From: Shimia sp.
GTDB lineage: Bacteria > Pseudomonadota > Alphaproteobacteria > Rhodobacterales > Rhodobacteraceae
Assembly: GCA_024224295.1 (NCBI GenBank)
Contig: JAAENN010000182.1
Location: 1 to 64,000 of the forward strand
DNA length: 64,000 nucleotides
Direction of reading: 5' to 3'
The position numbers and the translations under genes were made by a program. Positions 13,557 to 29,236 of this stretch are shown here, one piece after another (the first letter of the stretch is position 1; each line of letters opens with the position of its first letter). The notes under the pieces are model-generated. The model ran no database searches and had not been told where the DNA came from. It saw only the letters and a program-made list of their open reading frames with translations.

Positions 13557-15548
13557 TTAGAATGTCGCGGTCACAAACACGCTGGCATTGCGGCCTGCGC
13601 CGGGAATTTGGTCCACGGCGTGGTAGGAGCGATCAAAGATATTGCCAATCTCAAAGCTCATGCCCAGATTATCGGTCAGATCTACGGTGCCACGTAGGTT
13701 CAATGTACCATAGCCACCGTAGCGTGTGCCGTCTGTATCTGTATTGCCGCTTTCGCCACGAACAAAGACATCCCATGTGCCTGAAGTGGATTGCAGCCCC
13801 CAATCCCCACGTACACCAATGTCACCCGACCAGGTGGGCGTGCCTGTGTTCTTTGTGGTTGAACCGTCTTCGAATTTAAACGTGCGGTTTACGTTAGAGA
13901 TATTCACATATGGGCGCACGCCACCCCACCAACCAGGATCAAACTCTGCGGCGAGCTCAAAGCCCCAGGTTTCCGCTGCATTCACGTTTTCGTAGCGCGA
14001 CTCCCTAGGTACGCCTGTTGCCAGGGACGCAATGTAGTTCTTTGAGTCCGTGTAGAACAAGGCTGTGTCCAAGACGAGCCTCCCATTGTCGATCCGGGCG
14101 CCAATCTCATAGTTAATTGCGTCTTCGGGTTTTAGATTGGGGTTCCCAATCACCGTGCCTCCCGCTCCGACAGAGGTCAGGAACAGCTGGCTTAGAGATG
14201 GGTAGTTGTAGCCCTGGGAGATGTTTGCACGCAAAACTGAGTTTTCGTTCAGCTGATGCACCACACCAATTGACCCTAACAGCCGGTCATCGGAGTTCTT
14301 TTGAGAGGGCTGCGCGACGCTATTTACGATATACCGGCTTAGTTCGCTCTCGACATTGTAGTAGCGCATACCCAAAGTGGCTGTTGTGGCCTGTCCCATT
14401 TCCATTTCATGCTGGGCGAAGAGAGAGGTCGTTTTGATGGTGGCGTCGGAGTACCGCGTGGTCACGGAAGGCGGACCGCCCACAACTCTGGTCGCAAGCT
14501 TGTCAGAAATCAGACCGTCATTTTCGTATTCAAAACCAACCACGGTGCGATGTCCGGCAGCAAATTCCATGTTTGCCGTTGCTTTGAACCCTGACGTTTT
14601 TTGATCGTCGTTCGAGGTCGAATTGCTAAACATACCTGGACCGAAAGCCATATTGCTCTCAAATTCGCGGTCCACAGTTTGCGTGTAGGCATCTATTTCA
14701 AGCAGTGACATCCATGGTGTCAGGTCTTCGCCTTCGTAGAAAGCGCTGTACTTCCGCAGATCTCGCTTCGGCAGGTTAATTTCAAAGCCCGGCACGCCGA
14801 CATAGACGTCAGCAGACAGGTCATAGTCCTGCGCTCTTACTCCAATATAGTGTTGGCCCATGCGATACCCGAGGAAGGCATTGATGTCTCTATCGTCACT
14901 TCCGGATGGGTCGAGTTCGCCGTCGGGTGTTTCGCGGTTTTTGAGATCGGATTGAGACCACCCCAACCTGTAGTCAAAATCGCCAACTGTACCTGCGAGA
15001 CTGGTATTGGCGCGGTAGCCTTTGTTGGCGCCCAGGTATCCCGCAGACACTGTGGCTTCTACGGGCTTGTCCGCGCCGCGTTTGGTGATGATGTTCACGA
15101 CACCACCAATTGCAGCGTTACCAGAGGTGACAGAGGATGGCCCCCGTACAACTTCGATGCGTTCAATCTCCGTTGGCGAGATCAGGATGGGTGTACCGTA
15201 GTTGGTGTGGTCGGTTATTTTCTGACCATCAATCATGATTGCTACGCGCTGGGAGCTCTCGCCACGGATCTTGATGCGCTCGATACCGGATTCAGTCACG
15301 CGAATTCCGGGCACGCCCTTTAGCAGGTTTGCAACCGAACTTGGTGGGATCTTTTTGATTTCTTCTTCGTCTACCACAGTCACAGAGGACGGGCTGTTCA
15401 TGACTTTGGTCGGAAGTCCGCTGCCGGTGATCGTAATGGTGTCCAGGGCATAGTCGGTTTCGTCTTGGGCAAAGGCGGGGGGGGCAAATACCGCGCCCAG
15501 CAGCGCGGCAGAGGCCATGGATAAGCAGCTAACATTTTTCACAGTCAT
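13557..15548 (-). CDS. hmuR: TonB-dependent heme receptor
   Basis: This 663-residue outer-membrane receptor has a signal peptide (to AFAQD), a TonB box (LDTITITG) and a classical plug (SSVTVVDEEEIKKIP, VANLLKGVPGIRV, RIEVVRGPSSVTSGNAAIGGVVNIITKRG). The barrel carries NPNLKPEDAINYEIG, a typical receptor block, and the protein ends in VTATF. It is divergent from hmuSTUV and convergent with hemP, the usual layout of alphaproteobacterial heme-uptake loci, so heme is the likely ligand. It is not closely similar to the two receptors encoded upstream. Confidence 0.87.
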   Translation of the reverse strand: MTVKNVSCLSMASAALLGAVFAPPAFAQDETDYALDTITITGSGLPTKVMNSPSSVTVVDEEEIKKIPPSSVANLLKGVPGIRVTESGIERIKIRGESSQRVAIMIDGQKITDHTNYGTPILISPTEIERIEVVRGPSSVTSGNAAIGGVVNIITKRGADKPVEATVSAGYLGANKGYRANTSLAGTVGDFDYRLGWSQSDLKNRETPDGELDPSGSDDRDINAFLGYRMGQHYIGVRAQDYDLSADVYVGVPGFEINLPKRDLRKYSAFYEGEDLTPWMSLLEIDAYTQTVDREFESNMAFGPGMFSNSTSNDDQKTSGFKATANMEFAAGHRTVVGFEYENDGLISDKLATRVVGGPPSVTTRYSDATIKTTSLFAQHEMEMGQATTATLGMRYYNVESELSRYIVNSVAQPSQKNSDDRLLGSIGVVHQLNENSVLRANISQGYNYPSLSQLFLTSVGAGGTVIGNPNLKPEDAINYEIGARIDNGRLVLDTALFYTDSKNYIASLATGVPRESRYENVNAAETWGFELAAEFDPGWWGGVRPYVNISNVNRTFKFEDGSTTKNTGTPTWSGDIGVRGDWGLQSTSGTWDVFVRGESGNTDTDGTRYGGYGTLNLRGTVDLTDNLGMSFEIGNIFDRSYHAVDQIPGAGRNASVFVTATF

Positions 15549-15864
15549 GTCCCTTATTCGTTAGGGCATTTGCCCCATTGTGGAACACGGTCGCCCCTTA
15601 AGGCTCCGTGTCGAGTTAGTTCCTGGCTGAAAGCTGGGTCATGCTTGCAAAAGGCACTTTTTACTTAGCCTTTGTGCGAGTCGTAGGCGGCGTAAAGGAT
15701 TCGAAAGGTAAATACTATATTGTTTTTGTCAGAAAATGAGTGGGGGCTCTTGCAGTGCGACTTATTTGCACTTAGTGCCTTTGTTATATCAGCAAAGCAC
15801 AGCCAACGTTGCCGATTCCCTCGGTCGTAGCCACTGCTCCTTCCTATCTAGTCGGAGGATGCAA
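15549..15864. promoter_or_regulatory. Divergent hmuR / hmuS promoter region
   Basis: This 316-base region has no supported gene. It carries two copies of a related string, ACTTAGCCTTTGTG (about 15664-15677) and ACTTAGTGCCTTTGTT (about 15770-15785), and two short GCAC/GTGC inverted repeats nearby. These may be regulator sites for the divergent heme genes, but they do not match a consensus I can name. Confidence 0.4.
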
Positions 15865-16920
15865 ATGGCACCTATAACGTTTCTTTCGGACTCTGAAATT
15901 CGTCAAGCACGCTTAGGCAATCCGAAAATGCGAGAGCGAGATCTCGCGGATAAGCTGGGGATATCTGAAGCGCAGCTTCTTTCGGCACATCTAGGCCAAG
16001 GCGTGACACGCATCACACCGGATCTGGATGCCGTGATGCCCGCCGTGATGCGATTAGGTGAGGTAATGGCGCTGACCCGCAACGAAAGCTGTGTGATCGA
16101 AAAGACCGGCGCGTATGCCGATTATCGCGGCGGCCCGCACGCCGCTTTGGTGGTTAATGAAGAAATTGACTTGCGGATGTTCCCTGGGCATTGGAAGTTT
16201 GCGTTCGCTGTTGAGAAAGCCCTTGAAGGTGGCGCAGTGCGACGCTCTCTGCAGGTTTTTGATGCTGCTGGAGATGCCGTCCACAAAGTATTTTTGAAAG
16301 ACAGCTCCATTCAAGAGGAGTGGCCGGGTGTGGTCGCGGAACTGGAGATGTCTGAACAATCCTCGAACCTACGAACCGAGCGGAGACAGCCAACCGAACC
16401 GGCAAAAAGTGACAGTGACAAGGCAGAGCGTTTGCGTGCTGAGTGGGACAAGATCACGGACACCCATCAGTTCTTGCAGATGGTAAAAAAGCTAAAGATG
16501 AACCGGCTTGGCGCCTACCGGGTGGCCGGGTCTCCTTATGTACGCGCCTTGAAGACGTCTGCGGTTTCAGACCTGCTTGAACAAGCGCGAGATAAGGCTC
16601 TGCCAATCATGATTTTTGTGGGCAATCGTGGGTGCATTGAAATCCATACAGGACCAATTGAAACCGTGAAGCCAATGGGGCCGTGGATCAATATTCTTGA
16701 CCCTAGATTCAACCTGCATCTGCGTAATGATCATATTGCTGAAGTCTGGCAGGCAACAAAATCCACACGCCGTGGTGATGCCGTTTCTGTTGAAGCATTT
16801 GACAGCGAAGGCGGGTTGATTTTGCAAATTTTTGGAGTTTTGGCGGAGCCCGAAGCCGCTGCAAAATGGAACGCCCTTGTTGAAGGTCTGCCGAGCATGA
16901 AAGAGGAGATCGTGGCATGA
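15865..16920 (+). CDS. hmuS: Hemin-degrading/hemin transport factor HmuS (HemS/ChuS family)
   Basis: The 351-residue cytoplasmic protein starts at ATG 15865, which has CGGAGG 6 bases upstream; an open frame reaches 15736 but lacks a start signal. HemS/ChuS proteins consist of two tandem homologous halves. Both are visible: ARLGNPKMRERDLADKLGISEAQLLSA with MPAVMRLGEVMALTRNESCV in the first, and GAYRVAGSPYVRALKTSAVSDLLEQA with IMIFVGNRGCIEIHTGPIE in the second. Members bind or degrade heme after import. It overlaps hmuT (ATGA) in the hmuSTUV operon. Confidence 0.92.
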   Translation: MAPITFLSDSEIRQARLGNPKMRERDLADKLGISEAQLLSAHLGQGVTRITPDLDAVMPAVMRLGEVMALTRNESCVIEKTGAYADYRGGPHAALVVNEEIDLRMFPGHWKFAFAVEKALEGGAVRRSLQVFDAAGDAVHKVFLKDSSIQEEWPGVVAELEMSEQSSNLRTERRQPTEPAKSDSDKAERLRAEWDKITDTHQFLQMVKKLKMNRLGAYRVAGSPYVRALKTSAVSDLLEQARDKALPIMIFVGNRGCIEIHTGPIETVKPMGPWINILDPRFNLHLRNDHIAEVWQATKSTRRGDAVSVEAFDSEGGLILQIFGVLAEPEAAAKWNALVEGLPSMKEEIVA

Positions 16921-17795
16921 TGCGCTTCTCGTTACTCAGTAAAATACAAATGGCTATGGTGGCCGCTTTGTTGGCACTTTTGACTGTGGTTGTTGTGCGT
17001 GATGCCGGCGCACAAACAGCGCCGACACGGATCATCTCGGTTGGCGGCTCTGTGACGGAAATTGTCTATGCGCTGGGCCAAGAGCATCGTCTGGTCGCGC
17101 GAGACACAACGTCAAACTTTCCGGCAGAGGCGCGCGCGCTTCCAGATGTCGGCTATGTTCGCCGCCTTTCGCCTGAAGGGCTGCTTTCAGTCGAACCGGA
17201 TATGATCCTGGCGGAGGAGGGGGCTGGCCCTCCTGAGACCTTTGATGTTTTAGCAGGTACAGGCTTGCCGGTTGTCTCGATTCCGATGGGGTATGATCTG
17301 CTTGCAGTGGAGCGCAAAATCCGCGCGGTCGCCAAGGCGCTAGACGTCGAAGATGCAGGCGTAGAATTGGCTACTCAAGTTGCGGCTGATGTTGCAGAAG
17401 CCAGCCAGCTTGCAGGATTGCGGGATCAAAAAGTATTGTTTGTGTTGTCAATGCAAGGCGGGCGGATCATGGCCGCCGGAGCTGACACAGCTGCGCAAGG
17501 CGTACTGGAATTGGCGGGCGCACAGAATGCGATCTCTGGTTTTCAAGGGTACAAGCTGGTATCTGATGAAGCCGTGTTGACCGCGGCGCCGGATGTGATT
17601 TTGATGATGCAGTCACATCGTCCCGGCGCGACAAAGCCTGCGGATGTATTGGCGCACCCTGTCGTTGCCGCGACACCAGCAGGGCGCGCGCAAGCGGTTT
17701 TGCAAATGGATGGTATGTTGCTACTTGGCTTTTCCGTGCGCACTGGGCAGGCGGTCTCGGAATTGGCCGCCGGTTTGGCGGCGGCAGGTAGTTAA
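16917..17795 (+). CDS. hmuT: Heme ABC transporter, periplasmic binding protein
   Basis: The 292-residue protein has an N-terminal signal peptide (hydrophobic residues 13-28, cleavage near AGAQT). Type III binding-protein blocks follow: RIISVGGSVTEIVYALGQEHRLVARDTTS, LPDVGYVRRLSPEGLLSVEPDMILAEEGAGP and PDVILMMQSH. This block pattern is typical of HmuT/ShuT heme-binding proteins. Its start overlaps the hmuS stop (ATGA) and its stop is 3 bases before hmuU, so the operon is coupled. Confidence 0.92.
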   Translation: MMRFSLLSKIQMAMVAALLALLTVVVVRDAGAQTAPTRIISVGGSVTEIVYALGQEHRLVARDTTSNFPAEARALPDVGYVRRLSPEGLLSVEPDMILAEEGAGPPETFDVLAGTGLPVVSIPMGYDLLAVERKIRAVAKALDVEDAGVELATQVAADVAEASQLAGLRDQKVLFVLSMQGGRIMAAGADTAAQGVLELAGAQNAISGFQGYKLVSDEAVLTAAPDVILMMQSHRPGATKPADVLAHPVVAATPAGRAQAVLQMDGMLLLGFSVRTGQAVSELAAGLAAAGS

Positions 17796-17798
17796 GCG

Positions 17799-18866
17799 AT
17801 GGTCGCTACGACAATAGACGTTGTTTCCCGCCATGATGGTGACCGCACCGGAGGCGCGCGTAAAGTTACGGCCGCCTTGGTTCTATTGCTGATTTTGGTT
17901 TCCATCACGGGTCTTGCAATTGGCGCAGCAGATACATCCCTGTGGTCTGGCTTGCTGGCTTTCGTACAGGGCGAAGAGTTGTCGGTGCGTGACAAAATTG
18001 TGTTGTTACACATTCGCCTCCCGCGGTTGCTGACCGGGGTAACAGTTGGCGCGGCTTTGGCCACGTCAGGTGCCCTGTTGCAGGGGTTGTTTCGCAATCC
18101 TCTGGCCGATCCGGGTATCATTGGCGTAAGCGCAGGTGCGAGCTTTGGGGCGGTTTGTGCGATTGTTCTCGGCACTGTACTGCCGTTCGCGAGCGCGCTT
18201 GGGATGGCCCTATTGCCAATTTTTGCTTTTGCCGGTGCATGGAGTGCAACCCTCCTTTTATATGGGATCGCCACGCGTCAGGGGCGTACATCGGTGGCAA
18301 CGATGTTGCTTGCCGGGATCGCCTTGTCGGCTCTGACCATGGCATTGACCGGTGTGTTGATCTACATGGCGGACGATGCGCAGATGCGTGATTTCACCTT
18401 TTGGAACATGGGGTCATTGTCCGGGGCAAATTGGAGCAAACTCACAATTGCCGCTCCCGTTATCCTCGTGTCTCTGATCGTTGCACAGGCTTTGGCATCT
18501 GGTCTCAACTCCATGGCGCTGGGCGAAGCTGCAGCGCGTCATATGGGAGTGTCCGTGCAACTGGTCAAAAGGCTCACAATTCTCTGTGTGGCTGCCGCGA
18601 CAGGGGTAGCTGTGGCGATTAGTGGTGGGATAGGTTTTGTTGGCATTGTTGTGCCGCATATTCTGCGGCTCTTGTCTGGCCCTGACCATAGGCGGCTCTT
18701 GCTCAATTCTGCGCTCCTGGGGGCATGTGTGCTTGTGCTGGCCGATGTTGTGGCACGGGTGATCATCGCGCCAGCAGAGCTCCCGATTGGCATTATCACT
18801 GCCATCTTGGGTGGCCCGTTCTTCTTATGGATTTTGTTGCGCCAGCGTGGCGTTGTGGACCTTTGA
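17799..18866 (+). CDS. hmuU: Heme ABC transporter permease
   Basis: This 355-residue FecCD-family permease has about ten membrane segments. Characteristic blocks are RLPRLLTGVTVGAALATSGALLQGLFRNPLADPGIIGVSAGA, LNSMALGEAAARHMGV and the ATPase-coupling loop GGIGFVGIVVPHILRL. Homodimers of HmuU form the inner-membrane heme channel. It lies between hmuT and hmuV in the same operon. Confidence 0.93.
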   Translation: MVATTIDVVSRHDGDRTGGARKVTAALVLLLILVSITGLAIGAADTSLWSGLLAFVQGEELSVRDKIVLLHIRLPRLLTGVTVGAALATSGALLQGLFRNPLADPGIIGVSAGASFGAVCAIVLGTVLPFASALGMALLPIFAFAGAWSATLLLYGIATRQGRTSVATMLLAGIALSALTMALTGVLIYMADDAQMRDFTFWNMGSLSGANWSKLTIAAPVILVSLIVAQALASGLNSMALGEAAARHMGVSVQLVKRLTILCVAAATGVAVAISGGIGFVGIVVPHILRLLSGPDHRRLLLNSALLGACVLVLADVVARVIIAPAELPIGIITAILGGPFFLWILLRQRGVVDL

Positions 18867-18877
18867 GTGAGCGTGTG

Positions 18878-19651
18878 ATGAGTCTGATTGCTAAAGAAAT
18901 TGACGTCGTGGCCGGAAAGAAGGCGTTGCTCAAAGCGGTGTCGTTCAAAGCGTCTGCCGGGAAAATTACAGCGATTGTGGGCCCATCCGGCGCGGGTAAA
19001 TCGACGTTGATCTCTGCCCTGTCCGGGGACGTGCCTTATTCGGGCACTGTAACGCTGAACGACATCAACATCAAAGGTGTGACCGCACCCAGTTTGGCGC
19101 AACTTCGGGCTGTTCTGGCACAGGCTACACCTTTGGCGTTCCCCTTTACAGTTTTTGAAATTGTACGCCTTGGAGTACCTGCTGATGCGGATATCAACAT
19201 TGTTACGCGTGCCTTGCACAACGTTGGTTTGGCAGGCTTTGAAGGGCAGTATTATCAATCGCTTTCTGGTGGAGAGCAGCAACGAGTCCAATTGGCGCGT
19301 GTCCTATGCCAGGTTTGGCAACCAGTGAAGGACGGTGTTCCGCGTTGGTTGTTTTTGGATGAGCCTGTCTCAAGCCTTGATATCGGCCAACAACTGCGGG
19401 TTATGCAAAACGCTCGAGACTTTGCTGATCGTGGCGGGGGCGTTGTGGTGGTTATGCATGACTTGAACTTAACCGCCATGTTTGCAGACGAGGTCGCTTT
19501 GATTGTGGGAGGTGAGTTGGTGATACAAGAAACACCTGCAATGGCACTGACCTCCGAGCGGCTCAGTGCAGCTTATGGGTGTGATGTGCGTGTTCGTACG
19601 GCTCCTGAAATCGACTTTTTTGTTTTGCCGCAAATGACGCGGGTGTCTTAG
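18878..19651 (+). CDS. hmuV: Heme ABC transporter ATP-binding protein
   Basis: The 257-residue ABC ATPase has Walker A (GPSGAGKST), Q-loop (LAQATPLAFPF, typical of HmuV), signature (LSGGEQQRVQLARVL), Walker B (WLFLDEPVSSLD) and switch His (VVMHDLNL). ATG at 18878 is chosen, 11 bases after the hmuU stop; a TTG at 18863 is an alternative. It completes hmuSTUV and is convergent with the histidine phosphatase gene. Confidence 0.92.
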   Translation: MSLIAKEIDVVAGKKALLKAVSFKASAGKITAIVGPSGAGKSTLISALSGDVPYSGTVTLNDINIKGVTAPSLAQLRAVLAQATPLAFPFTVFEIVRLGVPADADINIVTRALHNVGLAGFEGQYYQSLSGGEQQRVQLARVLCQVWQPVKDGVPRWLFLDEPVSSLDIGQQLRVMQNARDFADRGGGVVVVMHDLNLTAMFADEVALIVGGELVIQETPAMALTSERLSAAYGCDVRVRTAPEIDFFVLPQMTRVS

Positions 19652-19692: not shown

Positions 19693-20286
19693 TCAAAGTG
19701 TAGACGACCAAAGCGTCTCCTGACCGGAGGTGACATCGTACACAGCCCCTTGGGGGCGATCCAAGAATTCAATTTCTTTGCGGCTTAACGCGCGTAGCAG
19801 GCCTCGGATCATACAGAGAGTAACCGAATGGGAAACCACGATTGTGGGTTTCTCAAGTTGTTGTAAAAAGCTCTCACAGCGATTGCGTAACGCGTCAAAA
19901 CCTTCACCACCCGGGGCGGTCAGGAAAAGCCGCATTAAGTCCTGCTCTTCAAATCCAGAGTGTGTTTTTTGGATGTCGGCGAAGGTTTTACCTTCCCAGC
20001 CACCAGCATTGATTTCAGCGACATTGGGATCCAGTCGTGGAAGTTTTCCAATCGTTCCAAGCGCAATCCTAGCGGTTTCCTGAGCTCGACCAAGAGGGCT
20101 GCAAACCGCGTCGAAACTTTCGATGCCCTGAATTTTCTTCAGGATATCGCCCTGCTGGCGGGCTTGCGCCCGCCCCAGGTCCGTGAGTGGTGAGCTTTTG
20201 CGTCCCTGAAGCCGGCCCTGCCGGTTCCATTCTGTTTCGCCGTGGCGCAACAGCAGCAGGCGCGGGCCGGTGTAGGTAAAGCTCAT
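19693..20286 (-). CDS. Histidine phosphatase family protein (phosphoglycerate mutase-like)
   Basis: The 197-residue cytoplasmic enzyme carries the phosphohistidine motif LLLRHGETEWNRQGRLQG at about residues 11-28, a second Arg in SPLGRAQETARIAL, Glu in the EINAGGWEGKTF block and the second His in VVSHSVTLCMIRGLLR. These are the residues of the two-histidine active site. No signal peptide is present. Its start overlaps the stop of the ABC ATPase gene (ATGA), making it the last gene of the importer operon. The coupling suggests that it dephosphorylates the imported compound; the substrate is inferred. Confidence 0.9.
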   Translation of the reverse strand: MSFTYTGPRLLLLRHGETEWNRQGRLQGRKSSPLTDLGRAQARQQGDILKKIQGIESFDAVCSPLGRAQETARIALGTIGKLPRLDPNVAEINAGGWEGKTFADIQKTHSGFEEQDLMRLFLTAPGGEGFDALRNRCESFLQQLEKPTIVVSHSVTLCMIRGLLRALSRKEIEFLDRPQGAVYDVTSGQETLWSSTL

Positions 20287-21344
20287 GTGGCTACGATCAC
20301 CGCTTCATTGGTGTTGACTTTCAGGTGCACATCGCTGCCGGTGTCACGCCAATCATGTCCGACATGGTGAAACTGATCGACAATCATTTCCGTGCCGGAC
20401 GTGCGCACAATGTAGCGCACCTGACTGCCCATAAATTCGCGATGCAAAATGGTGCCGGGCAAGGTGTCTGCGCCCGCTTGGTCCACGATCTGCATGTTCT
20501 GTGGTCTCAGAACAATCGATCCTGCGCCTTCTTGGCCGTCACCGAGTGGCAGCACATCGCCGGCGCTGGTGCGGAAACGTTTGGCACCGCCGTCGCTTTC
20601 CACCTGTCCACCGAGGATATTGGCGGTGCCAAGGAACTCAGCCACAAACAAGTTTTCCGGCGTGTCATACAGCACCTGAGGTGTGCCAATTTGTTGGATC
20701 ACGCCTTTGTCCAACACTGCCATGCGATCTGCGGTGGTGTTGGCCTCTTCCTGATCGTGGGTCACAAAGATGGTGGTTAAGCCTAGCTTGCGTTGCAGCG
20801 CCAGCAATTCGCGGCGCATTTGCACCCGCAGGCTGGCGTCCAAGTTGGATAGCGGTTCGTCCAACAGCAAAACCTCTGGTTCCACAACCACCGTTCGGGC
20901 TAGGGCGATCCTTTGTTGTTGCCCACCAGACAGCTGATTGGGCATCCGGTCTGCCAAATGAGACAGACCGACAAGATCCAGCGCAGCGTCGACTTTTGGC
21001 GCTATCTCTGATGCAGGCATTTTACGTTCCTTGAGGCCAAAGCCCACATTGTCACGCACGGACATATGCGGCCAAAGCGCGTAAGACTGGAATACCATAC
21101 CAACATTGCGTTTCCACGGTGGCAGGCTCACCACGTCACGTCCGCCTATGCGGATGCTGCCACGCGGGGTTGGGCCGAAGCCTGCGATCGAGCGCAGCAG
21201 AGTGGACTTGCCGGACCCGGAGGGGCCAAGGAAGGCGAAGAATTCGCCCGGCTGGATGTCGAGGTTCACCCCGGTCAACACTTCGGTTTCACCAAAGGAG
21301 AGGTGCAGATCGTTGATTTCAATTCCGACCATTTGATTTGTCAT
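20283..21344 (-). CDS. ABC transporter ATP-binding protein (AfuC/FbpC/PotA type)
   Basis: This is a 353-residue ATPase: Walker A (GPSGSGKST), Q-loop (VFQSYALWPHM), signature (LSGGQQQRIALART), Walker B (LLLDEPLSNLD), switch His (FVTHDQEEA), then a C-terminal TOBE-type regulatory domain from about residue 245. It belongs with the two-domain permease and binding protein upstream. The family is often annotated as ferric iron or spermidine, but the binding protein and the neighbours argue for a phosphorylated organic substrate. It overlaps the phosphatase gene. Confidence 0.9.
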   Translation of the reverse strand: MTNQMVGIEINDLHLSFGETEVLTGVNLDIQPGEFFAFLGPSGSGKSTLLRSIAGFGPTPRGSIRIGGRDVVSLPPWKRNVGMVFQSYALWPHMSVRDNVGFGLKERKMPASEIAPKVDAALDLVGLSHLADRMPNQLSGGQQQRIALARTVVVEPEVLLLDEPLSNLDASLRVQMRRELLALQRKLGLTTIFVTHDQEEANTTADRMAVLDKGVIQQIGTPQVLYDTPENLFVAEFLGTANILGGQVESDGGAKRFRTSAGDVLPLGDGQEGAGSIVLRPQNMQIVDQAGADTLPGTILHREFMGSQVRYIVRTSGTEMIVDQFHHVGHDWRDTGSDVHLKVNTNEAVIVAT

Positions 21345-21364
21345 AGTTCTTTACTCCCGCACGT

Positions 21365-23116
21365 TTAGTGCGACTGATCCGTGGATTTGAATTTTTTGTC
21401 GCGCTCTATCATCAGCTGCGACAGGAAGGTGCCGAGGCCGACGATGATGACAGCAACCACACCAAGGGCTGCGCCAGCGCCACGTCCGGACGGCGTTTGC
21501 ATGAAGAGGTAGATGCCATAAGCCAGCGGCGCGTCACTTTCTGAACTCACCAGCATGATGGTGGCCGAGAGTTCCACCGCTGCGGTGGCAACGGAGGTCA
21601 CGAACCCCGCCAGAATACCACCCGACATCAGCGGGATCACAATCCGGCGGATGGTGGAGCCTTTGGTGGCGCCAAGGCTTTCCGCTGCTTCCTCTAATGC
21701 AAGCGATACCTGTTGCAAGGCCGCAGTACAGGCCCGCAATGCATAGGGTAGGCGGCGTATCATCAGCGCAAGCGCAATGATCACCCACCAGCTGGCCATC
21801 GGTTTGTCGGTGAACGGGATGTCGATGGAGTGGAACACCCGCAGGTAGCCAATGCCCAGTACCACACCCGGCACAGCCAGCGCAGCTGTCGCGAGATAAT
21901 CGAGCGACTTACGGCCCCAGATGCCGGTCCGGATCACGATGTAGGCAATGGCTGTGCCAATGATCACGTCGAGGACGGCCGCGATGCCCGCATAGATCAC
22001 TGTGTTGGTGATGAACTGCTTCGAGTTCTCCCACATCACGACGTAATTCTGTATGGTGAACCCGTCAGGCAGAGGGGCAAAGCTCCAGATGGTGGCAAAG
22101 CTGAGCAGGGTCAGGCCAATGTGTGGGCTGAGCACCAGAATGAGAATGAAGGCCACCACAGCGTAAGCGGCAATCTTCTCCCCGGTGCGTAGGTCACGCC
22201 GAGACAGACCGCCGCCGCCTTTTTGCACGGTGGAATAGTCTTTGCCGCGCATAACAAGGAAGGACGCCCAGAGCGAGAAGATCGAGAAGGCCACAAGGAT
22301 GAAGCTGATGACATAACCCATCGGGTCGCTGATCCCGATCGAACTGATCCGCAGGAAGGCCTGTGGCGCAAGCATGTTGTTCACGTTCAAAAGCAGGGGC
22401 GTGCCAAGATCATCAAACACCTTGATGAACACCAGCGCGGCACCCGCCACATAACCCGGCATGGCCAGCGGGAATACAATTCGGCGGAACAGACGCATGC
22501 CTTGCGAGCCAAGGTTTTGCGCAGCCTCTTCCATGGAGCGGTCGATGTTACGCAGGCTGGTGGAGAGGTTGATCAGGATAAACGGGAAGTAGTGGATCGA
22601 TTGCACCAGAATGACGCCATTGAGGCCCTCCATGAAGGGGATGTTGATGCCAAACTTCTCTTCTATCAGCAGGTTGAGGGTGCCGTTGCGACCAAAGATC
22701 AACTGCATCGCCACTGCGCCCACAAAGGGCGGCATGATCAGCGGGATGAAACCGAGGCTTTGAATCACCACGGAGCCCGCAAAATTGAAGCGGGTGGTGA
22801 TGTAGGCCAAGGGCAAGGCGATGACGGTGGCAAACACCACGGACATGGCCGAAACATAAAACGAGTTCCAGAAACTTTCACGGAAGAGGGTTGTACGGAA
22901 GAAGTCCACAAAGTTCTGCAGCGTCAAAGCGCCGGTGTTGGGATCGAGAAAGGCAACGTAAATCACCTGAAGGACGGGGATGATCAGCAGGCCGATCAGC
23001 AGGATGGCAATGATCAGCGCGGCGGCATGAAGTCCGGACACGCGCGGAAAGATCGACGCCGGAAGACGGTCAAGCAGAGACGGACCGCCGTTGGAGTGCG
23101 GCGAGGCATTCGACAT
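21365..23116 (-). CDS. ABC transporter permease with two fused membrane domains (AfuB/FbpB type)
   Basis: The 583-residue protein is a tandem fusion of two BPD-type permease units, each with about six membrane segments. The first unit spans about residues 30-290 and has the EAA-like loop EEAAQNLGSQGMRLFRRIVFPLAMPG. The second spans about 320-570 and has EEAAESLGATKGSTIRRIVIPLMSGG. This is the AfuB/FbpB architecture. It lies between the binding-protein gene (107-base gap with a stem-loop) and the ATPase gene. Confidence 0.92.
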   Translation of the reverse strand: MSNASPHSNGGPSLLDRLPASIFPRVSGLHAAALIIAILLIGLLIIPVLQVIYVAFLDPNTGALTLQNFVDFFRTTLFRESFWNSFYVSAMSVVFATVIALPLAYITTRFNFAGSVVIQSLGFIPLIMPPFVGAVAMQLIFGRNGTLNLLIEEKFGINIPFMEGLNGVILVQSIHYFPFILINLSTSLRNIDRSMEEAAQNLGSQGMRLFRRIVFPLAMPGYVAGAALVFIKVFDDLGTPLLLNVNNMLAPQAFLRISSIGISDPMGYVISFILVAFSIFSLWASFLVMRGKDYSTVQKGGGGLSRRDLRTGEKIAAYAVVAFILILVLSPHIGLTLLSFATIWSFAPLPDGFTIQNYVVMWENSKQFITNTVIYAGIAAVLDVIIGTAIAYIVIRTGIWGRKSLDYLATAALAVPGVVLGIGYLRVFHSIDIPFTDKPMASWWVIIALALMIRRLPYALRACTAALQQVSLALEEAAESLGATKGSTIRRIVIPLMSGGILAGFVTSVATAAVELSATIMLVSSESDAPLAYGIYLFMQTPSGRGAGAALGVVAVIIVGLGTFLSQLMIERDKKFKSTDQSH

Positions 23117-23147
23117 GGGAAATTACCCGAGAATTTAGAGGAGAGTG

Positions 23148-23180
23148 GCTTTGGTGCCGGGGAGTGACCTGCACCAAAGC
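23148..23180 (-). other. Intercistronic stem-loop downstream of the binding-protein gene
   Basis: A perfect 10-bp inverted repeat, GCTTTGGTGC (23148-23157) and GCACCAAAGC (23171-23180), encloses a 13-base loop. It lies in the gap between the binding-protein and permease genes. There is no T-run. Such structures commonly stabilise the upstream message so that the binding protein is made in excess. Confidence 0.6.
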
Positions 23181-23223
23181 GCGAAGTGCAGGGCGACGCA
23201 TGGCCACCCTGCGGGAGGCGCCG

Positions 23224-24549
23224 TTACAGAGCGGCGGCTTTGTCAGCCAGCTCTTTGGCTTTGCGGTAGTTTTCAACCACCATCGCATCCCAGCGTTGTT
23301 CAACTTCGGCCTGACGCTCGCCAACCGTGTCGGTGGCTTTCTTGCGCTTTTTGGTGAAGATACCGGCAAACTCCGGATCCATCGATGTGGCTTCGTCAAT
23401 GGGGTTGGCATCGATCAACGCACGGGCCTCAGCGATCAGCGCCTGGGCCTCGGCATTGTCGCCACCAGCGTGTTTGGCTTCCGCCTGTTGCACCGCACCA
23501 ACAGCGGCGCGCAGATCGTCCAGACGGTAAGTGATCATCACGTCAAACATGGAATTCACCAGGTTGTAACGTGCACCGGATTTGGCAACGTCAAACTTCA
23601 CAGCCGCCCCAATGGAGCCGTCCTCAAACGGGTTTGGAAACCCTTCTGGTGCACTTGTGTAGGTGGCCGGATTGATCGGCAAACGCATGATTGCCGGGTC
23701 CAGCAACACTTCCTGACCGGCTGGGGTCAGCAGGTACTCCACAAAGGTTTTGGCCGCTGCCTCATTTGGCGCGTTGTTCACCACAGCGATGTTGGCGGGC
23801 ACCAGGGCTGTGACCTCAGGATAGGCGAAGTCCACCGGGAACCCGGAGGCTTTGGAGCTGAAGCCAAAGAAGTCGATCACAATACCAAGGCCAAAGTTAC
23901 CAGTGTTCACGCCATCTGGCACACCAAATGAGCGCTCGGTCACGGTGGAGAAGTTGCCGCCAATCCATTTCCATTCGGCCCAGCCTTTGTCCCAGCCTTC
24001 CCCCTGCAAAACAGTCTCTACAGTCAGGTGGGTGGTGCCGGAGCGCGATGGCGCGGACATGCCCACGTGGCCATGATAGGTGGCGTCTTTCAGGTCCGCC
24101 CAATTCTTGGCAGGCTCCAGTTTCTTGGCCTTCAGATACCGTTCATTCCACATGATGCCGTAACCCGCAGCGGCAAAGCCATAGTATTTGCCGTCCGGGT
24201 CATTCATCGGATAGGCGCCAATTTTTTCGGGGATGCCGTCAGAGTTGATCTCAACAGAGGCCAGCAGATTGTCGCCCTTTAGTACCTCAAACGCGTCCGG
24301 CGCGGAGGCCCAGAAGATGTCCGCTGTGTTGGCGTCAGAAATCTCTTGAATGTATTTCACACCTGCTGAGGTCTTCTTGTTCAAAATCTCCAGATCAATG
24401 CCCGGGTTGGCCGCTTCAAAAGCCGCCTCAATTGGGCCTGTCATCGAGTTGGGGAACGAGGTGACCACAACCACCTTGTCCGCCGCAAAAGCTGCGGATG
24501 CGGAACTCAGAGCCAGAGCGGCCACAGATGTGCGAAAAGTTCGTTTCAT
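23224..24549 (-). CDS. ABC transporter periplasmic substrate-binding protein (AfuA/PgtC-related)
   Basis: The 441-residue protein starts at ATG 24549 with GGGAGG upstream. A signal peptide ends at AFAAD. The type II binding-protein fold is recognisable from VVVVTSFPNSMTGPIEAAFEAANPG, ADIFWASAPDAFEVL, SAPSRSGTTHLTVETVLQG and VIDFFGFSS. The C-terminal 100 residues are helical and charged and exceed the usual AfuA length of about 340. It is paralogous to the PgtC-like protein at 27953: both have S-R-S-G-(T/S)-T-H, R-S-F and I-D-F at matching places. Its operon encodes the importer and phosphatase. Confidence 0.88.
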   Translation of the reverse strand: MKRTFRTSVAALALSSASAAFAADKVVVVTSFPNSMTGPIEAAFEAANPGIDLEILNKKTSAGVKYIQEISDANTADIFWASAPDAFEVLKGDNLLASVEINSDGIPEKIGAYPMNDPDGKYYGFAAAGYGIMWNERYLKAKKLEPAKNWADLKDATYHGHVGMSAPSRSGTTHLTVETVLQGEGWDKGWAEWKWIGGNFSTVTERSFGVPDGVNTGNFGLGIVIDFFGFSSKASGFPVDFAYPEVTALVPANIAVVNNAPNEAAAKTFVEYLLTPAGQEVLLDPAIMRLPINPATYTSAPEGFPNPFEDGSIGAAVKFDVAKSGARYNLVNSMFDVMITYRLDDLRAAVGAVQQAEAKHAGGDNAEAQALIAEARALIDANPIDEATSMDPEFAGIFTKKRKKATDTVGERQAEVEQRWDAMVVENYRKAKELADKAAAL

Positions 24550-24576
24550 GTTTTCCTCCCATGGATGGGCCACACA

Positions 24577-24582
24577 AGTATA
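24577..24582 (-). promoter_or_regulatory. Candidate -10 element of the importer operon
   Basis: On the minus strand TATACT (24582-24577) lies 28 bases before the start codon. The expected -35 position reads CTAGGG, a very poor match, so activation would be required. This is consistent with an upstream activator acting from the palindromes at 24638-24700. Confidence 0.4.
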
Positions 24583-24637
24583 GCCCAACAATGTCCAAAC
24601 CCTAGCCAGCCAATAACAAATGGCTCAACGGATGATT

Positions 24638-24700
24638 TCGAAACTGTTTCGATTGTGGGTTTGGGTCAAATTTGACACGAGAAACTGTGTCAAGTTTGAC
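24638..24700. promoter_or_regulatory. Cluster of palindromic sites, candidate PgtA-binding upstream activating sequence
   Basis: GTCAAATTTGAC at 24665-24676 is a perfect 12-bp palindrome. GTCAAGTTTGAC at 24689-24700 is the same site with one change, 24 bp away centre to centre, so both lie on nearly the same helix face. A third, different palindrome, TCGAAACTGTTTCGA, spans 24638-24652. All lie between the response-regulator stop and the importer operon. The spacing relative to the candidate -10 (about 70-130 bases) fits an upstream activator. Confidence 0.65.
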
Positions 24701-24706
24701 CGATTT

Positions 24707-25951
24707 TCAGTCGATGCCGCAGTGCTTCAGTCGCAAGTAAAGCCGCTTGCGCGGAATGCCGAGCAACTCTGCCGCCGTCGCTTTGCGCCCGCCGCTTTGA
24801 ATCAGAGCATTGCTTAATAGGTCCCGCTCATGCCTCAGCATCGCGTCATCGTAGGTTTCGGTGACTGCGGTCGAGGCGCGCTCGTCCAAACGCACGGTTA
24901 GGCCCACCACTAGTTTTTCGGCGACGTTGCGCAGCTCACGCACGTTGCCGGGCCAAGTGTATTTTCCAAGCGCGTCGAGATCAGGCACAGGCAACGCCTT
25001 TTGCGACTTACCGTGACGCGCGGCAGCGCGCTGAATGAAATGATCCAGTAAGACAAACACATCCCGGCCACGCTCCCTGAGCGGAGGCATTTCAATCTGT
25101 GCCACATTGATCCGGTACAGCAGGTCGCTGCGCAGTTTGCCTGCGACGAGAAGATCTTCTGGCTTTTGACTAACTGAGGCCACGACACGCGGCGCGTCGG
25201 CGTTGTCAAAAATCCGCAGCAATTGCGCCTGCAACTGGTCGGACAGGGCTTCCACATCCTGCAAATGCAAGGTGCCGCCCGATGCCCGCGTCACTGCGCC
25301 ACCGCCTTCAAACAACGTGCGCTCAATTGTGTCTTGCGATACGGCGGAACAGTTCACCACAACAAAAGTCCCACCAGCATTGGGGGACAGATCGTGGATC
25401 GCCCGCGCCGCGGCGGTCTTGCCGGTGCCATCCTGTCCCCACAAAAGCACATCTACCTGCAATGGCGCCACCGCTTGCAGATCACGCCGCACAAACCGCA
25501 TGACCTTGGAGCGGCCCACAAGCTGTTCTTCCAAAGGCAGTGTTGACCTGGTCCTGTGTTGCAGGTTGGTCAGTTCCACCTGCAGGCTGCGCATTTTCAA
25601 GGCCCGCAATACTACTTGATGCAGGTGATCTGGATGGACAGGCTTTTCGAGAAACTCAAAGGCCCCGTTGCGCATGGCCTGCACGGCAACCGGCACATCT
25701 CCATGGCCGGTGAACAGGATCACAGGCACATCCGGCGCAAGCCGTTTGACCTCTTCCTGAAAGGCCAGCCCATCCATGCCGGGCATGCGAATGTCGCTGA
25801 GCACCACGCCAGGCCACTCCGGGTCAAGTGCCCCCAGCGCATCGGCTGCGCGGGCAAACCCTTTGGCGGTCAGTTTGTGTTTTTCAAAGGTGTCCAGAAC
25901 CGCGTCGCGCAGATCGTCGTCGTCATCCACCAAGAATATCTGCGGCTGCAT
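24707..25951 (-). CDS. pgtA: PgtA-like response regulator, AAA+ type without GAFTGA loop
   Basis: The 414-residue protein starts at ATG 25951 (GGGGGAG 3 bases upstream). The receiver domain spans 1-120 with phospho-acceptor Asp53 (VVLSDIRMPGMDG). The AAA+ domain at about 145-345 has Walker A GQDGTGKT and the WPGNVREL block. A Fis-type helix-turn-helix ends the protein (RKATAAELLGIPRKRLYLRLK). The segment that should contain GAFTGA is shortened: after NCSAVSQDTIERTLFEGGG it runs straight to AVTRASGGTLHL. GAFTGA is needed to contact sigma-54, so sigma-70-dependent action is likely. The gene overlaps pgtB by 29 bases. Confidence 0.88.
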   Translation of the reverse strand: MQPQIFLVDDDDDLRDAVLDTFEKHKLTAKGFARAADALGALDPEWPGVVLSDIRMPGMDGLAFQEEVKRLAPDVPVILFTGHGDVPVAVQAMRNGAFEFLEKPVHPDHLHQVVLRALKMRSLQVELTNLQHRTRSTLPLEEQLVGRSKVMRFVRRDLQAVAPLQVDVLLWGQDGTGKTAAARAIHDLSPNAGGTFVVVNCSAVSQDTIERTLFEGGGAVTRASGGTLHLQDVEALSDQLQAQLLRIFDNADAPRVVASVSQKPEDLLVAGKLRSDLLYRINVAQIEMPPLRERGRDVFVLLDHFIQRAAARHGKSQKALPVPDLDALGKYTWPGNVRELRNVAEKLVVGLTVRLDERASTAVTETYDDAMLRHERDLLSNALIQSGGRKATAAELLGIPRKRLYLRLKHCGID

Positions 25952-27956
25952 CTGCTCCCCCTTTGCGTAGAACAAGCGTTGCCGTCGCGCCCGGCCCATC
26001 CGTGTTGGGGCTCAGTTGCAAGTCGCCGTTCAGGTCTTTCATGATGTTGTAGGAAATCGACAAGCCCAGTCCCAGCCCCTTTCCAACCTCTTTGGTGGTC
26101 ACAAAGGGGTCCAGGGCTTCGGCGGCGGGGATCAGGTCGAACCCCGCACCGTTGTCGCGCACCGCGAGATGCACGGCGTTGTCGATCAGTTGGGCGCCGA
26201 TGGTGATCTGGCCCGGTCGCTCTGCTTGCTGGGTCGCGTCCAGCGCGTTGGACAGGATGTTGACCAGCACCTGTTCGATCAGGATTTTGTCCCCGATCAC
26301 AGTCAATTGGGGCAGGTCATCTGCCACCGTGATCTCGGTGGCCTCCTGCGCAATCCGGGCTTTCAAGAGCGCCAAAGAGTCACTCACCAGCTCATCCAAC
26401 GGGAGCTTGTCCTCGCTGAATTCGGAACGCCGAGCAAAGTTGCGCAGATAGGCGATCGTGCGGGTCATGCGCTCAATCAGACCGTCCAGACGGGACAGCT
26501 GCCGCGCGGTCATCTCGGCATCGCCTTCGGCCACATAGTCGTCCAGCAATTGCAAACGGTGCTGCATCGCGGCCAGCGGTTGATTCAACTCGTGCGCAAT
26601 CCCGGCCGACATCTGTCCCAGCGCAGCCATCTTCCCCGCCTGGATCAGTTCCTTCTGGGTTTGTTTCAAAGTCTCCACAGCGCGGCGGCGTTCCTGCACT
26701 TCGGTCTCCAGAGACCTCAGCGCTGCATCGCGGGTTTGAATAGAGCGTTCAAATTCGGAAATTGCCACAGACAGCTGCACAATTTCATCGTCTTCTTTGT
26801 TGGGGGGCAGCATCAAGTTCTGGCCCTGCGCAATATCACTCAACCGTTTGGTCATGCGCCTCAACGGGCGCACAATGCCGGTGCGGATATAGCCAAACAG
26901 CACACCAAATCCGATCATTGCCGCCAGCGCGGTCAGACCAATCAACCAGCGGATGGCCAATGTGGTGTCCCGCCGTGACCGTTCGGTCTGCGCCAAAATC
27001 CGTGCGCGCTGTTCTTGGCCGGCCCTTGAAAGGAGAAGTTGCAGATTGCCCAGGTCAGTCTGCAGTGCTGCGAGGCTCGCCAGCATATCGGCTTGCGCGT
27101 CTAGCCAAGCCAGTCGCAGGCGAAAGATGCCGGTCTCGCTGGTTGCAACCGGCACCAAGGCCTCCACGGATTGCCGGAGCGTGGTCAGTTCGGGTTCGTC
27201 CTGTAGCTGGGTCCGCAGCCTCGCGATGCGCACCAAAGCGTCGTCCGTCAGCCCTTGCAACTGTGCCAGCCGCTCCCTGTTTTCCGCAACCGCTGCCTGA
27301 AAGATCAACGTCACTGTATTGGCCGTGCTGTCCCCCAATCGCCGCACGGTATCGCGCTGTTGGCCTTCGTCTTCAATCAACCGCGCCTGCCGCGCGCGAA
27401 AATCCGGGTCCGCACTGGTCACCAGACTGCTCATCGCAATGGAGATATTGAAGGCAAAGTCACTGAGCAGCGGGTCCACCTCATCCTGCACATCCGCATT
27501 CAACCACCGTAGCGCATTGAGCTGCGTGCCCATATCACGCTCCGCCTGCCCAATGGCCCCTTGCAGTCTCTGGATCTGCGCCAGCCCCTCGCTGACCCGC
27601 ACAACGATCTCCGGCGCGTCCCCAGTCCCTTCGGTCTGTGAAATTGGGGCCAGGCTTGCGGTCAGACCAGAGACAATTTCTCCCAATTCCAACTGCGCCG
27701 CCGTGTCCGGCGTTCCGCTTTGCCCCACAATCTGTGTTGCCACAGTGGACAGCTGCGCCGAATACTCCGCCAGGGCGCTCACCGCCGCTAGCGCCGGGAT
27801 CTGCTCGGACGCAATCGCCGCGTAATCGCGTTGCGCCTTCAGGAAAAACAGGATCGACACCGCCAGCACCAACCAAACCGTCAAGATGATGCCCGAAATC
27901 GTGAGCAGCAGCCGGTTCCACACTGATGCGCGCGTTAAAATATTCGGCAGTCTCAT
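25923..27956 (-). CDS. pgtB: PgtB-like sensor histidine kinase
   Basis: This 677-residue membrane kinase has a first membrane segment at about 14-36 and a large mostly helical periplasmic domain. The second membrane segment is at about 335-355, followed by a HAMP region, a coiled coil (about 400-435) and the phospho-acceptor block GIAHELNQPLAAM with His near 450. The HATPase domain carries VLVNILSNALDATQ, DNGAGFD and GKGLGLGLSISYNIM. It overlaps the binding-protein gene upstream by 4 bases and the regulator downstream by 29. In Salmonella, PgtB works with PgtC and PgtA to induce phosphoglycerate uptake. Confidence 0.87.
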   Translation of the reverse strand: MRLPNILTRASVWNRLLLTISGIILTVWLVLAVSILFFLKAQRDYAAIASEQIPALAAVSALAEYSAQLSTVATQIVGQSGTPDTAAQLELGEIVSGLTASLAPISQTEGTGDAPEIVVRVSEGLAQIQRLQGAIGQAERDMGTQLNALRWLNADVQDEVDPLLSDFAFNISIAMSSLVTSADPDFRARQARLIEDEGQQRDTVRRLGDSTANTVTLIFQAAVAENRERLAQLQGLTDDALVRIARLRTQLQDEPELTTLRQSVEALVPVATSETGIFRLRLAWLDAQADMLASLAALQTDLGNLQLLLSRAGQEQRARILAQTERSRRDTTLAIRWLIGLTALAAMIGFGVLFGYIRTGIVRPLRRMTKRLSDIAQGQNLMLPPNKEDDEIVQLSVAISEFERSIQTRDAALRSLETEVQERRRAVETLKQTQKELIQAGKMAALGQMSAGIAHELNQPLAAMQHRLQLLDDYVAEGDAEMTARQLSRLDGLIERMTRTIAYLRNFARRSEFSEDKLPLDELVSDSLALLKARIAQEATEITVADDLPQLTVIGDKILIEQVLVNILSNALDATQQAERPGQITIGAQLIDNAVHLAVRDNGAGFDLIPAAEALDPFVTTKEVGKGLGLGLSISYNIMKDLNGDLQLSPNTDGPGATATLVLRKGGADAAADILGG

Positions 27957-29236
27957 TCGCTGCGCACCAAGGCTTTAGCCCGTTCCGCTTCCAACACCCG
28001 CAGCAAACCGTTTGCCTCATCCAGCAAAGATTGCGATGCTGCATGCCACTCTCTCAGGCTGGCCTCCTGTCGCTCAGACAGGGTGGCAAAGGCATTTGCA
28101 TTGGTCGCGCGCCCCTCGTTGCCGACCGCATCCTCGGCAACCGGCATCGTGGTCAGCAAGCGGCGAATGTCGTGCATCGCCACACTTGGAGCTGCCTGTT
28201 CTTCTTCCAAAACACGCAGCCTACGCCAGGTTTCCCTACGAACCTCAAACACCTCAAATACAAAAGCATCAAACAGCGCGTTCACCGCCCAGTACCGCTC
28301 ACTTGCCAACGCGGCATCATACTCCAGCCAATTCAGCGTCAGAGCATCTTCCAGAACCTGATGATAGGGGGCTGTGGCTTCGGCCCGGATGTGCGCCGCA
28401 TGTGGCGTGCGCGCAATTTCTGGTGTCATCAACAGCCGTTGCCCTGCGTCCGAGACAATAAAATCCACAAAGGACCGGGCCTGTTCTGGCACCTTGCCGT
28501 CCGCCAAAACCGCAATCCGTGCGGTGGTCACCATAACCGGCGTGCCGTAGACAAAGCTCAGGTCTTCGTCAGCGCGGGAATGGGCGAGAAAATCGATGGT
28601 CAGTCCAATGTCAAACCGCCCGTTTGCCACACCATCCAGCACGGTGAAGCTGCGCGCGGTGATGGTGCTGAGGTTGCCCGCCAGTTCCAGCAAATAGGCC
28701 CAACCCTCCTGCCAGCCGCGCACCTGCAAGGAGCGCTCCAGCACCATATGGGTTGATCCGGAGCGCGAGGGGCGGGCCATGGCAATTGCACCTGCGTTCT
28801 CCGCTGCCAAGAGCGCGTCCCATCCCGCGGAGGTCGCGACCGCACCGCTTTGTTTTTGGGTCCACCCCAGAGCCGAATAGGCAAAGGAGTGCACATCCGG
28901 TTCGTCGGTGGTTGGTAAACTCGCCAGATGTCCGTTCTGCTTGAGCAGCTCAAAAGCCTCGGGGGACGAGGACCAGAACACATCAAATTGTCGCTCGTTG
29001 CCGCGCAGGATTTCATCCACCGAGGCGTTGGTGTTTTTGTTGAGCGTGATGACGTCGACGTCGGGATGTTGCTTCGAAAAGGCCGCAACAAAAGGCTGGT
29101 AAAAACTTGGCGGCATAGATGTCAAAACCCGGAGTTTGTCGGCCCAGAGTTGTGTGCCAAATACGGTCACGAGCATCACGGCCAAAGCTGTTTTTGCTTT
29201 TCGCCAGCCGCAAGTGTTTCTTGTTGCTCGTGTCAC
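27953..29236 (-). CDS. pgtC: PgtC-like periplasmic sensing binding protein
   Basis: The protein has about 427 residues if it starts at the GTG at 29236 (GGGGA upstream), which gives a normal signal peptide ending at LWA|DKL. The frame stays open to 29302, so the start is uncertain. It is a type II binding protein (VLTSMPPSFYQPFVAAFSKQHPD, FDVFWSSSPEAFELL, ARPSRSGSTHMVLERSL, GLTIDFLAHS) with a long helical C-terminal part. It is co-encoded with the kinase and regulator rather than with a permease, so a ligand-presenting role is likely. It is paralogous to the importer's own binding protein. Confidence 0.8.
   Translation of the reverse strand: MTRATRNTCGWRKAKTALAVMLVTVFGTQLWADKLRVLTSMPPSFYQPFVAAFSKQHPDVDVITLNKNTNASVDEILRGNERQFDVFWSSSPEAFELLKQNGHLASLPTTDEPDVHSFAYSALGWTQKQSGAVATSAGWDALLAAENAGAIAMARPSRSGSTHMVLERSLQVRGWQEGWAYLLELAGNLSTITARSFTVLDGVANGRFDIGLTIDFLAHSRADEDLSFVYGTPVMVTTARIAVLADGKVPEQARSFVDFIVSDAGQRLLMTPEIARTPHAAHIRAEATAPYHQVLEDALTLNWLEYDAALASERYWAVNALFDAFVFEVFEVRRETWRRLRVLEEEQAAPSVAMHDIRRLLTTMPVAEDAVGNEGRATNANAFATLSERQEASLREWHAASQSLLDEANGLLRVLEAERAKALVRSE

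Follow-up and report, generated by a model that had tools for sequence, protein, structure and literature searches.

The subject of this article is a cluster of seven tightly packed, co-directional genes that runs on the minus strand from position 29236 to 19693 of a 64,000-nucleotide stretch of Shimia sp. DNA (contig JAAENN010000182.1), called the window here. Read in order of transcription, the genes encode a PgtC-like sensor binding protein (SBP1), a PgtB-like histidine kinase (HK), a PgtA-like regulator (RR), a second binding protein (SBP2), a permease and an ATPase of the ATP-binding cassette (ABC) class, and a histidine phosphatase (HP). Judged from its sequence, the cluster appears to represent a widespread new form of the Pgt system, in which an ABC importer replaces the major facilitator superfamily (MFS) carrier. 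No description of such an ABC form was found in the titles and abstract openings listed by searches of an open-access library. The original prediction spoke of six co-directional genes; the common orientation holds, whereas the count does not, as seven are listed and present.

The gene cluster and its relatives

The first three genes follow the PgtPABC system of Salmonella and other enterics in their order (binding protein, kinase, regulator) and in their overlaps. Both binding proteins match the Pfam families SBP_bac_11, SBP_bac_1 and SBP_bac_6; HK carries HisKA and HATPase_c, with HAMP below its cut-off; RR combines a receiver, a sigma54-activator domain and a Fis-type helix-turn-helix (HTH). 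In NCBIfam, HK comes closest to PgtB and RR to PgtA. Sensor, kinase and regulator are homologous in the two systems, which also have ligand-site residues in common, a related operator and HTH, and a regulator that lacks the GAFTGA loop. The proteins are, however, only 26-32% identical (SBP1 to PgtC, 29.5% over 369 aa; HK to PgtB, 26% over 527 aa; RR to PgtA, 32% over 401 aa), and whereas the MFS antiporter PgtP is the transporter in enterics, here transport falls to an ABC importer, which has a PgtC-type binding protein of its own and is joined by a phosphatase gene. The divergent MFS gene pgtP does not adjoin the cluster, and no MFS gene was found among its neighbours in the window, just as had been predicted.

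Feature coordinates are collected in Table 1. The start of RR is preceded by GGGGGAG, and the gene overlaps the end of HK. For SBP2, the open-reading-frame list called TTG 24591, which we set aside for the ATG that stands behind GGGAGG. The ATGA by which the HP start overlaps the ATPase stop, already noted in the original prediction, lies at 20286-20283.

Table 1. Features of the cluster in window coordinates
Feature	Position	Strand	Basis and remarks
SBP1, PgtC-like periplasmic sensor binding protein	27953..29236	-	Pfam SBP_bac_11; likely start GTG 29236
HK, PgtB-like sensor histidine kinase	25923..27956	-	start overlaps SBP1 stop (ATGA); Pfam, NCBIfam
RR, PgtA-like NtrC-family regulator without GAFTGA loop	24707..25951	-	likely start ATG 25951; Pfam, NCBIfam
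Predicted RR operator, two GTCA-N4-TGAC palindromes 24 bp apart	24664..24701	. (unassigned)	directly 3' of RR stop
SBP2, PgtC-type transport binding protein	23224..24549	-	start ATG 24549; ribosome-binding site GGGAGG 24560-24555
Two-domain ABC permease	21365..23116	-	two BPD_transp_1 stretches; synteny
ABC ATPase with TOBE_2 domain	20283..21344	-	Pfam; synteny
HP, histidine phosphatase, branch 1	19693..20286	-	PF00300; linkage in relatives

Relatives were sought among 84,980 species, each represented by a single genome. At least 594 stretches matched and 484 encoded a relative, the best 80 of which were kept (loci are labelled L with a number). Among these best 80 of 484, the permease lies beside SBP2 in 78 and permease plus ATPase in 75; kinase and regulator stand upstream in 47, several contigs being short, and the whole block including the sensor binding protein is present in 43. 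The block from SBP1 to the ATPase recurs in Rhodobacterales, Maritalea, Azospirillum, Rhizobiales and Alcaligenaceae, and annotated plasmids extend it to Paracoccus, Chelatococcus, Pseudochrobactrum and Azospirillum; many other loci, mostly gammaproteobacterial, hold the importer alone. The plasmid block of P. zhejiangensis comes without a phosphatase. In two Azospirillum records (L121, L132), aspartate decarboxylase and antiporter genes sit between regulator and importer, and a sigma54 site is still found directly before the importer. Aminobacter sp. MDW-2 (L129:12968-17534) has sensor protein, kinase and regulator with no importer within the 27 kb examined, so that its regulator may act at a distance.

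The spread is patchy: 14 of 385 sampled genomes of the class and 10 of 394 of the family are positive, the window's own being counted in both, as are 6 of 24 other genomes of the genus, one of the six only partially. A PgtB search of 398 genomes of the phylum gave eight with a match at E 1e-60 and none above the PgtB cut-off, which among the controls E. coli alone exceeded.

Two loci carry unexpected labels (L056, Enemella evansiae, Actinomycetota; L084, Euryarchaeota); their block copies look proteobacterial and the assemblies are probably mislabelled or contaminated. Two records of the plasmid collection (L158, L159) are 4.1 and 5.4 million bases long and chromosome-like. In the window, the cluster is flanked by genes of other systems, with haem uptake genes on one side and, on the other, a MarR-type gene, a tripartite ATP-independent periplasmic (TRAP) transporter and a hydantoinase. 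The haem uptake and degradation genes (13557-19651: HemS, a periplasmic protein, FecCD permease, ATPase) converge on the phosphatase gene, with a TonB receptor at 13557-15548.

Operator, regulator loop and promoter type

The gap between RR and SBP2 holds GGTCAAACTTGACACAGTTTCTCGTGTCAAATTTGACC, two GTCA-N4-TGAC palindromes 24 bp apart, which we predict to be the operator of RR. Allowing up to one mismatch, the 4.56 Mb genome has a single copy of this tandem (reversed control, 0) and none at 23 bp spacing. Over all loci scanned, palindrome pairs number 36 at 23 bp and 9 at 24 bp, with other spacings from 13 to 39 bp reaching 6 at most, and the tandem is conserved in regulator-importer gaps of relatives. 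A putative tandem GTCA-N4-TGAC operator in this position is new here.

Promoter type was compared with the regulator loop in 68 loci (a redundant set), scanned from 40 bases before the regulator stop; L059 and L070 were left out, their regulator being partial or distant. GAFTGA is missing from 46 regulators, the window's RR belonging to this group, and 44 of the 46 loci have the tandem at two mismatches or fewer. The other 22 retain the loop, and every one of them has a sigma54 -24/-12 site at no more than two mismatches. When the set is collapsed at 70% regulator identity, which merges the exceptions L065 and L039 (= L149) into other representatives, the tandem is found in 15/15 without and 0/14 with GAFTGA, and the sigma54 site in 14/14 with and 0/15 without it. 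A regulator tree, built after near-copies and L092 (a regulator of another type) had been taken out, 11 of 55 rows in all, places two losses of the loop, one on the Rhodobacterales/Alcaligenaceae branch and one on the enteric/Vibrio PgtA branch.

Similar sites accompany the enteric genes. A perfect TGGGTCAAAATTGACCCA lies between Providencia pgtP and pgtC (0 of 2000 shuffles), and the Salmonella pgtP-pgtC region has an operator-like site with one mismatch (13 of 2000 shuffles; 13 of 1000 in another run). The HTH ends of the two regulators are nearly identical, IPRKRLYLRLK in RR and IPRKKLYLRMK in Salmonella PgtA.

NtrC of Rhodobacter capsulatus and of Caulobacter likewise belongs to this family and lacks GAFTGA, although its regulon is another one, and here, among orthologous operons, loop and sigma54 promoter are lost together. 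The R. capsulatus protein is reported in a preprint (PMC10274813) to act with sigma70. By analogy with it, and given the missing loop, RR presumably uses the housekeeping polymerase.

Ligand site and phosphatase slot

SBP1 and SBP2 are 33% identical over 316 aa, and a search of the genome with SBP2 returned these two alone at E 0.001 (six candidates scored). SBP2 aligns with PgtC nearly end to end (29% over 378 aa, 162 BLAST bits) and with AfuA over about 155 aa (38.8 bits, from phmmer, a different program). The solved structures nearest to its profile are 8X1A, P5PA and AfuA, the last two available as entries 6WCE and 4R73, and the same three lead for SBP1.

A joint alignment and tree were made from 62 hand-picked rows (32 transport proteins, 27 sensors and 3 PgtC). 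Ligand-site equivalences are taken from sequence alignments, and the columns at the sugar end are uncertain by one, since two alignments differ there. The phosphate-holding positions of AfuA and P5PA align with T74, S184-G185-T186 and S221 of SBP2; T74 and S184-G185-T186, invariant in the 32 transport proteins, match the AfuA phosphate contacts Ser37 and Ser148-Gly149-Thr150. Across all three groups, S184, R220, S221 and D240 are invariant, R183 is kept except in two sensors, and position 74 is Thr, with Ser or Ala in PgtC. The positions of R183 and R220 are both Ser in AfuA; the two basic residues could serve a phosphate and a carboxylate.

The sugar end differs from that of AfuA. Sit et al. 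(PMC4546632) give His205, Asp206 and Glu229 of AfuA as each essential for binding of glucose 6-phosphate and use the triad to define AfuA. In our alignments, His205 pairs with Asp or Phe and Glu229 with Val, and no His is found at the His205 position in either alignment of SBP2, despite the one-column shift. In ferric importers of the FbpABC type, an adjacent Tyr pair binds Fe(III); SBP2 has Phe-Phe at that place, invariant in the 32 transport proteins.

Because SBP2 shows neither the sugar triad of AfuA nor the Tyr pair of ferric importers, the importer is better classed, on its residues, as PgtC-type than as Afu-type, and the Afu-type importer of the original prediction is given up. AfuABC and P5PAB resemble the present system in being ABC importers whose binding protein has the SGT phosphate motif. 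They differ from it in that here the AfuA triad is absent as aligned, Arg replaces AfuA Ser at two site positions, a C-terminal extension of about 100 residues is present, and a sensor system and a phosphatase are linked. For the same lack of the triad, a phosphoglycerate- or phosphoenolpyruvate (PEP)-like acid seems to fit better than a hexose phosphate; of the two ligands first proposed, phosphoglycerate or sugar phosphate, the latter thus becomes the less likely. In the tree, the transport proteins form one clade, the sensors fall in more than one branch and PgtC has a separate branch, with long-branch warnings for PgtC of Vibrio fluvialis, L087 and L057. Sensors of SBP1 type belong to loci of Rhodobacterales, Maritalea and Alcaligenaceae, and in others, such as L084, L088, L098, L104 and L107, the sensor is closer to SBP2.

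A second line of evidence is the slot that follows the ATPase, defined as the next 1.2 kb. We collapsed 113 loci at 90% SBP2 identity to 74 representatives, of which 59 were counted and 15 had too little flank. An HP or a HAD phosphatase occupies the slot in 22 of 35 regulator-linked representatives (20 histidine phosphatase, 5 HAD, 3 of them both) vs 3 of 24 without a regulator (Fisher p 1.4e-4). This count is post hoc, because the HP, HAD, PdxH and pyruvate kinase references were picked after the loci had been seen; loci without a regulator were scanned with the same references, and L070 was entered among them, its regulator being too distant. Two unrelated phosphatase families thus occupy the same place, and the phosphatase linkage that had been predicted is borne out, the more so as all five Shimia-type loci (L032-L036) have it. 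The HAD enzymes match phosphoglycolate phosphatase, that of Aquibaculum above the cut-off (214.8 against 180 bits) and two of Maritalea just below it (176.0 and 170.5). Pyruvate kinase follows HP in 3 of the 35, and in a Pgt-type cluster of Vibrio fluvialis it neighbours the pgtP-like MFS gene, so the same enzyme goes with both the MFS carrier form and the ABC form. Absent from the original prediction are the operator, the missing sigma54-contact loop, and the HAD phosphatase and pyruvate kinase of relatives.

HP itself keeps R14, H15, R67, E91 and H153, invariant among 21 aligned linked proteins including the window's, which we take to be the catalytic set (R-H, R, E, H) of branch 1 histidine phosphatases. 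It shares PF00300 and these residues with the CobC/PhoE-type enzymes; unlike them, it is tied to an importer operon, and it falls below every NCBIfam cut-off reported (CobC, 84.7 of 162.9 bits). A mutase role is held less likely, because of the NCBIfam scores (35.9 of 81.7 bits for the dPGM model pgm_1) and the HAD enzyme in the same slot. Elsewhere, the genome encodes a phosphoglycolate phosphatase and a DUF4147 protein, presumably of the glycerate kinase family. At the level of sequence, then, the genes and overlaps, the conservation of the block, the recurrent phosphatase slot, the shared ligand-site residues, and the operator with its loop co-variation are established.

Directly upstream of aphA and the Pgt-type block, plasmid 1 of Paracoccus denitrificans PD1222 encodes a further ABC importer operon, which includes an inositol monophosphatase and a MurR/RpiR regulator (L120:5509-11022). 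It is possibly another importer of a phospho-compound with its own phosphatase.

The proposed circuit and candidate ligands

We consider it probable that the cluster is a complete, self-regulated operon by which a small carboxylic acid that carries a phosphate is used. The class of 2- or 3-phosphoglycerate (2-PGA, 3-PGA) and PEP is the likeliest, with 2-phosphoglycolate possible. SBP1 would bind the ligand in the periplasm and activate the membrane kinase HK, which would phosphorylate RR. On its operator, RR would then activate transcription from SBP2 to HP, presumably with housekeeping RNA polymerase. SBP2, of the PgtC family and with the same site signature as SBP1, would hand the ligand to the importer, and in the cytoplasm HP would strip off the phosphate, yielding inorganic phosphate together with an acid, for instance glycerate, that the presumed glycerate kinase encoded elsewhere could re-use. 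The anatomy of the cluster supports the self-contained circuit of sensing, import and dephosphorylation first suggested; the ligand, the direction of regulation, sigma70 use and phosphatase activity are what we infer.

Several observations weigh against this reading. The NCBIfam scores are far below their cut-offs (HK, 210.6 of 1000 bits for PgtB; RR, 283.6 of 650 bits for PgtA). Locus L065 keeps GAFTGA yet also has the tandem (two mismatches; 1 of 22), and L039 (= L149) has lost the loop, has the tandem with three mismatches and gives a sigma54-like match with two, the sole such matches in the loop-less group; the counts of loop against promoter are moreover not independent, because the tree asks only two loop changes. 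In the pgt regions of other species, operator matches are imperfect and singly within the shuffles (58 of 1000 in E. coli, 143 in Proteus, 94 in Vibrio, 260 in Klebsiella). Between RR and SBP2, a simple promoter scan detected no site of sigma70 type (2 sites in the region vs a shuffle mean of 3.2), leaving sigma70 use without direct support, and the scan also scored the operator stretch as terminator-like on the plus strand. In 13 of the 35 regulator-linked representatives the slot has neither HP nor HAD. PgtP carries 2-PGA, 3-PGA and PEP (PMC10715179); since PGA and PEP enter metabolism without a phosphatase, the true ligand may be a compound that the cell cannot use directly. A phosphatase would make most sense for such a ligand, for example 2-phosphoglycolate, or where inorganic phosphate is the prize. 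Lastly, in the printed alignment P5PA has Ser at R183 with Arg beside it and Lys at R220, so basic residues are not unique to PgtC-type proteins, and a PdxH-like gene takes the slot in two Alcaligenaceae loci and follows HP in P. denitrificans, which hints at vitamin B6 phosphates.

A vitamin B6 phosphate, that is, pyridoxal 5'-phosphate (PLP) or the corresponding pyridoxine (PNP) or pyridoxamine (PMP) form, is an unlikely ligand all the same. P5PA, a PLP binder (PMC8427247), is a close solved relative with basic residues at or beside both Arg positions. Of the PdxH-like genes (L068, L071, L120), two exceed the cut-off of the pyridoxal 5'-phosphate synthase subfamily (175.1 and 169.8 against 129 bits). 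They are, however, present in only 3 of the 35 regulator-linked representatives, the two proteins tested fall below the PdxH equivalog cut-off (171.0 and 160.4 of 180 bits), and the pyruvate kinase and phosphoglycolate-phosphatase-like genes do not fit.

That the same circuit handles a sugar phosphate, as AfuABC does, strikes us as decidedly unlikely. The SGT motif is retained, and for each binding protein the three best solved relatives include AfuA and P5PA; but His205, Asp206 and Glu229 are not preserved in the alignments, although D240 comes to within one or two columns of Asp206, and the neighbours of relatives encode enzymes of lower glycolysis.

We think it very unlikely that the importer serves 2-aminoethylphosphonate (2-AEP) or another phosphonate. 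SBP2, permease and ATPase score best in NCBIfam against PhnS2, PhnU2 and PhnT2, yet all stay below cut-off (98.6 of 392.75, 162.5 of 593.25 and 353.5 of 457.7 bits). No phosphonatase or 2-AEP transaminase is annotated in the annotated stretches of relatives examined, where other transaminases occur, and cleavage of a C-P bond is not expected of a phosphatase. A ferric iron importer with an unrelated phosphatase such as CobC is scarcely credible: records do annotate an 'iron ABC transporter permease' and haem uptake genes adjoin, but Phe-Phe stands where the Tyr-Tyr iron ligands would align, the phosphatase is linked across many genera and swapped for a HAD enzyme in some, and HP misses the CobC cut-off.

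Beyond the phosphorylated-acid operon proposed for Shimia, a broader proposition seems to us evenly balanced. Under it, these loci would form a widespread and so far undescribed class of ABC importers that take up phosphorylated C2-C3 acids, under PgtA-type regulators that twice lost the sigma54-contact loop. In the Rhodobacterales/Alcaligenaceae the promoter would have been rewired simultaneously, from sigma54 -24/-12 to the tandem GTCA-N4-TGAC with housekeeping polymerase, without any change of ligand, kinase or target operon.

Because public records name the permease an iron transporter, a way in which marine and soil bacteria take up organic phosphorus and carbon may have gone unnoticed. 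Orthologous operons with and without sigma54 promoters make the polymerase switch of an NtrC-type activator directly testable, and the binding-protein tree bears on how a family of transport proteins supplied sensors such as PgtC.

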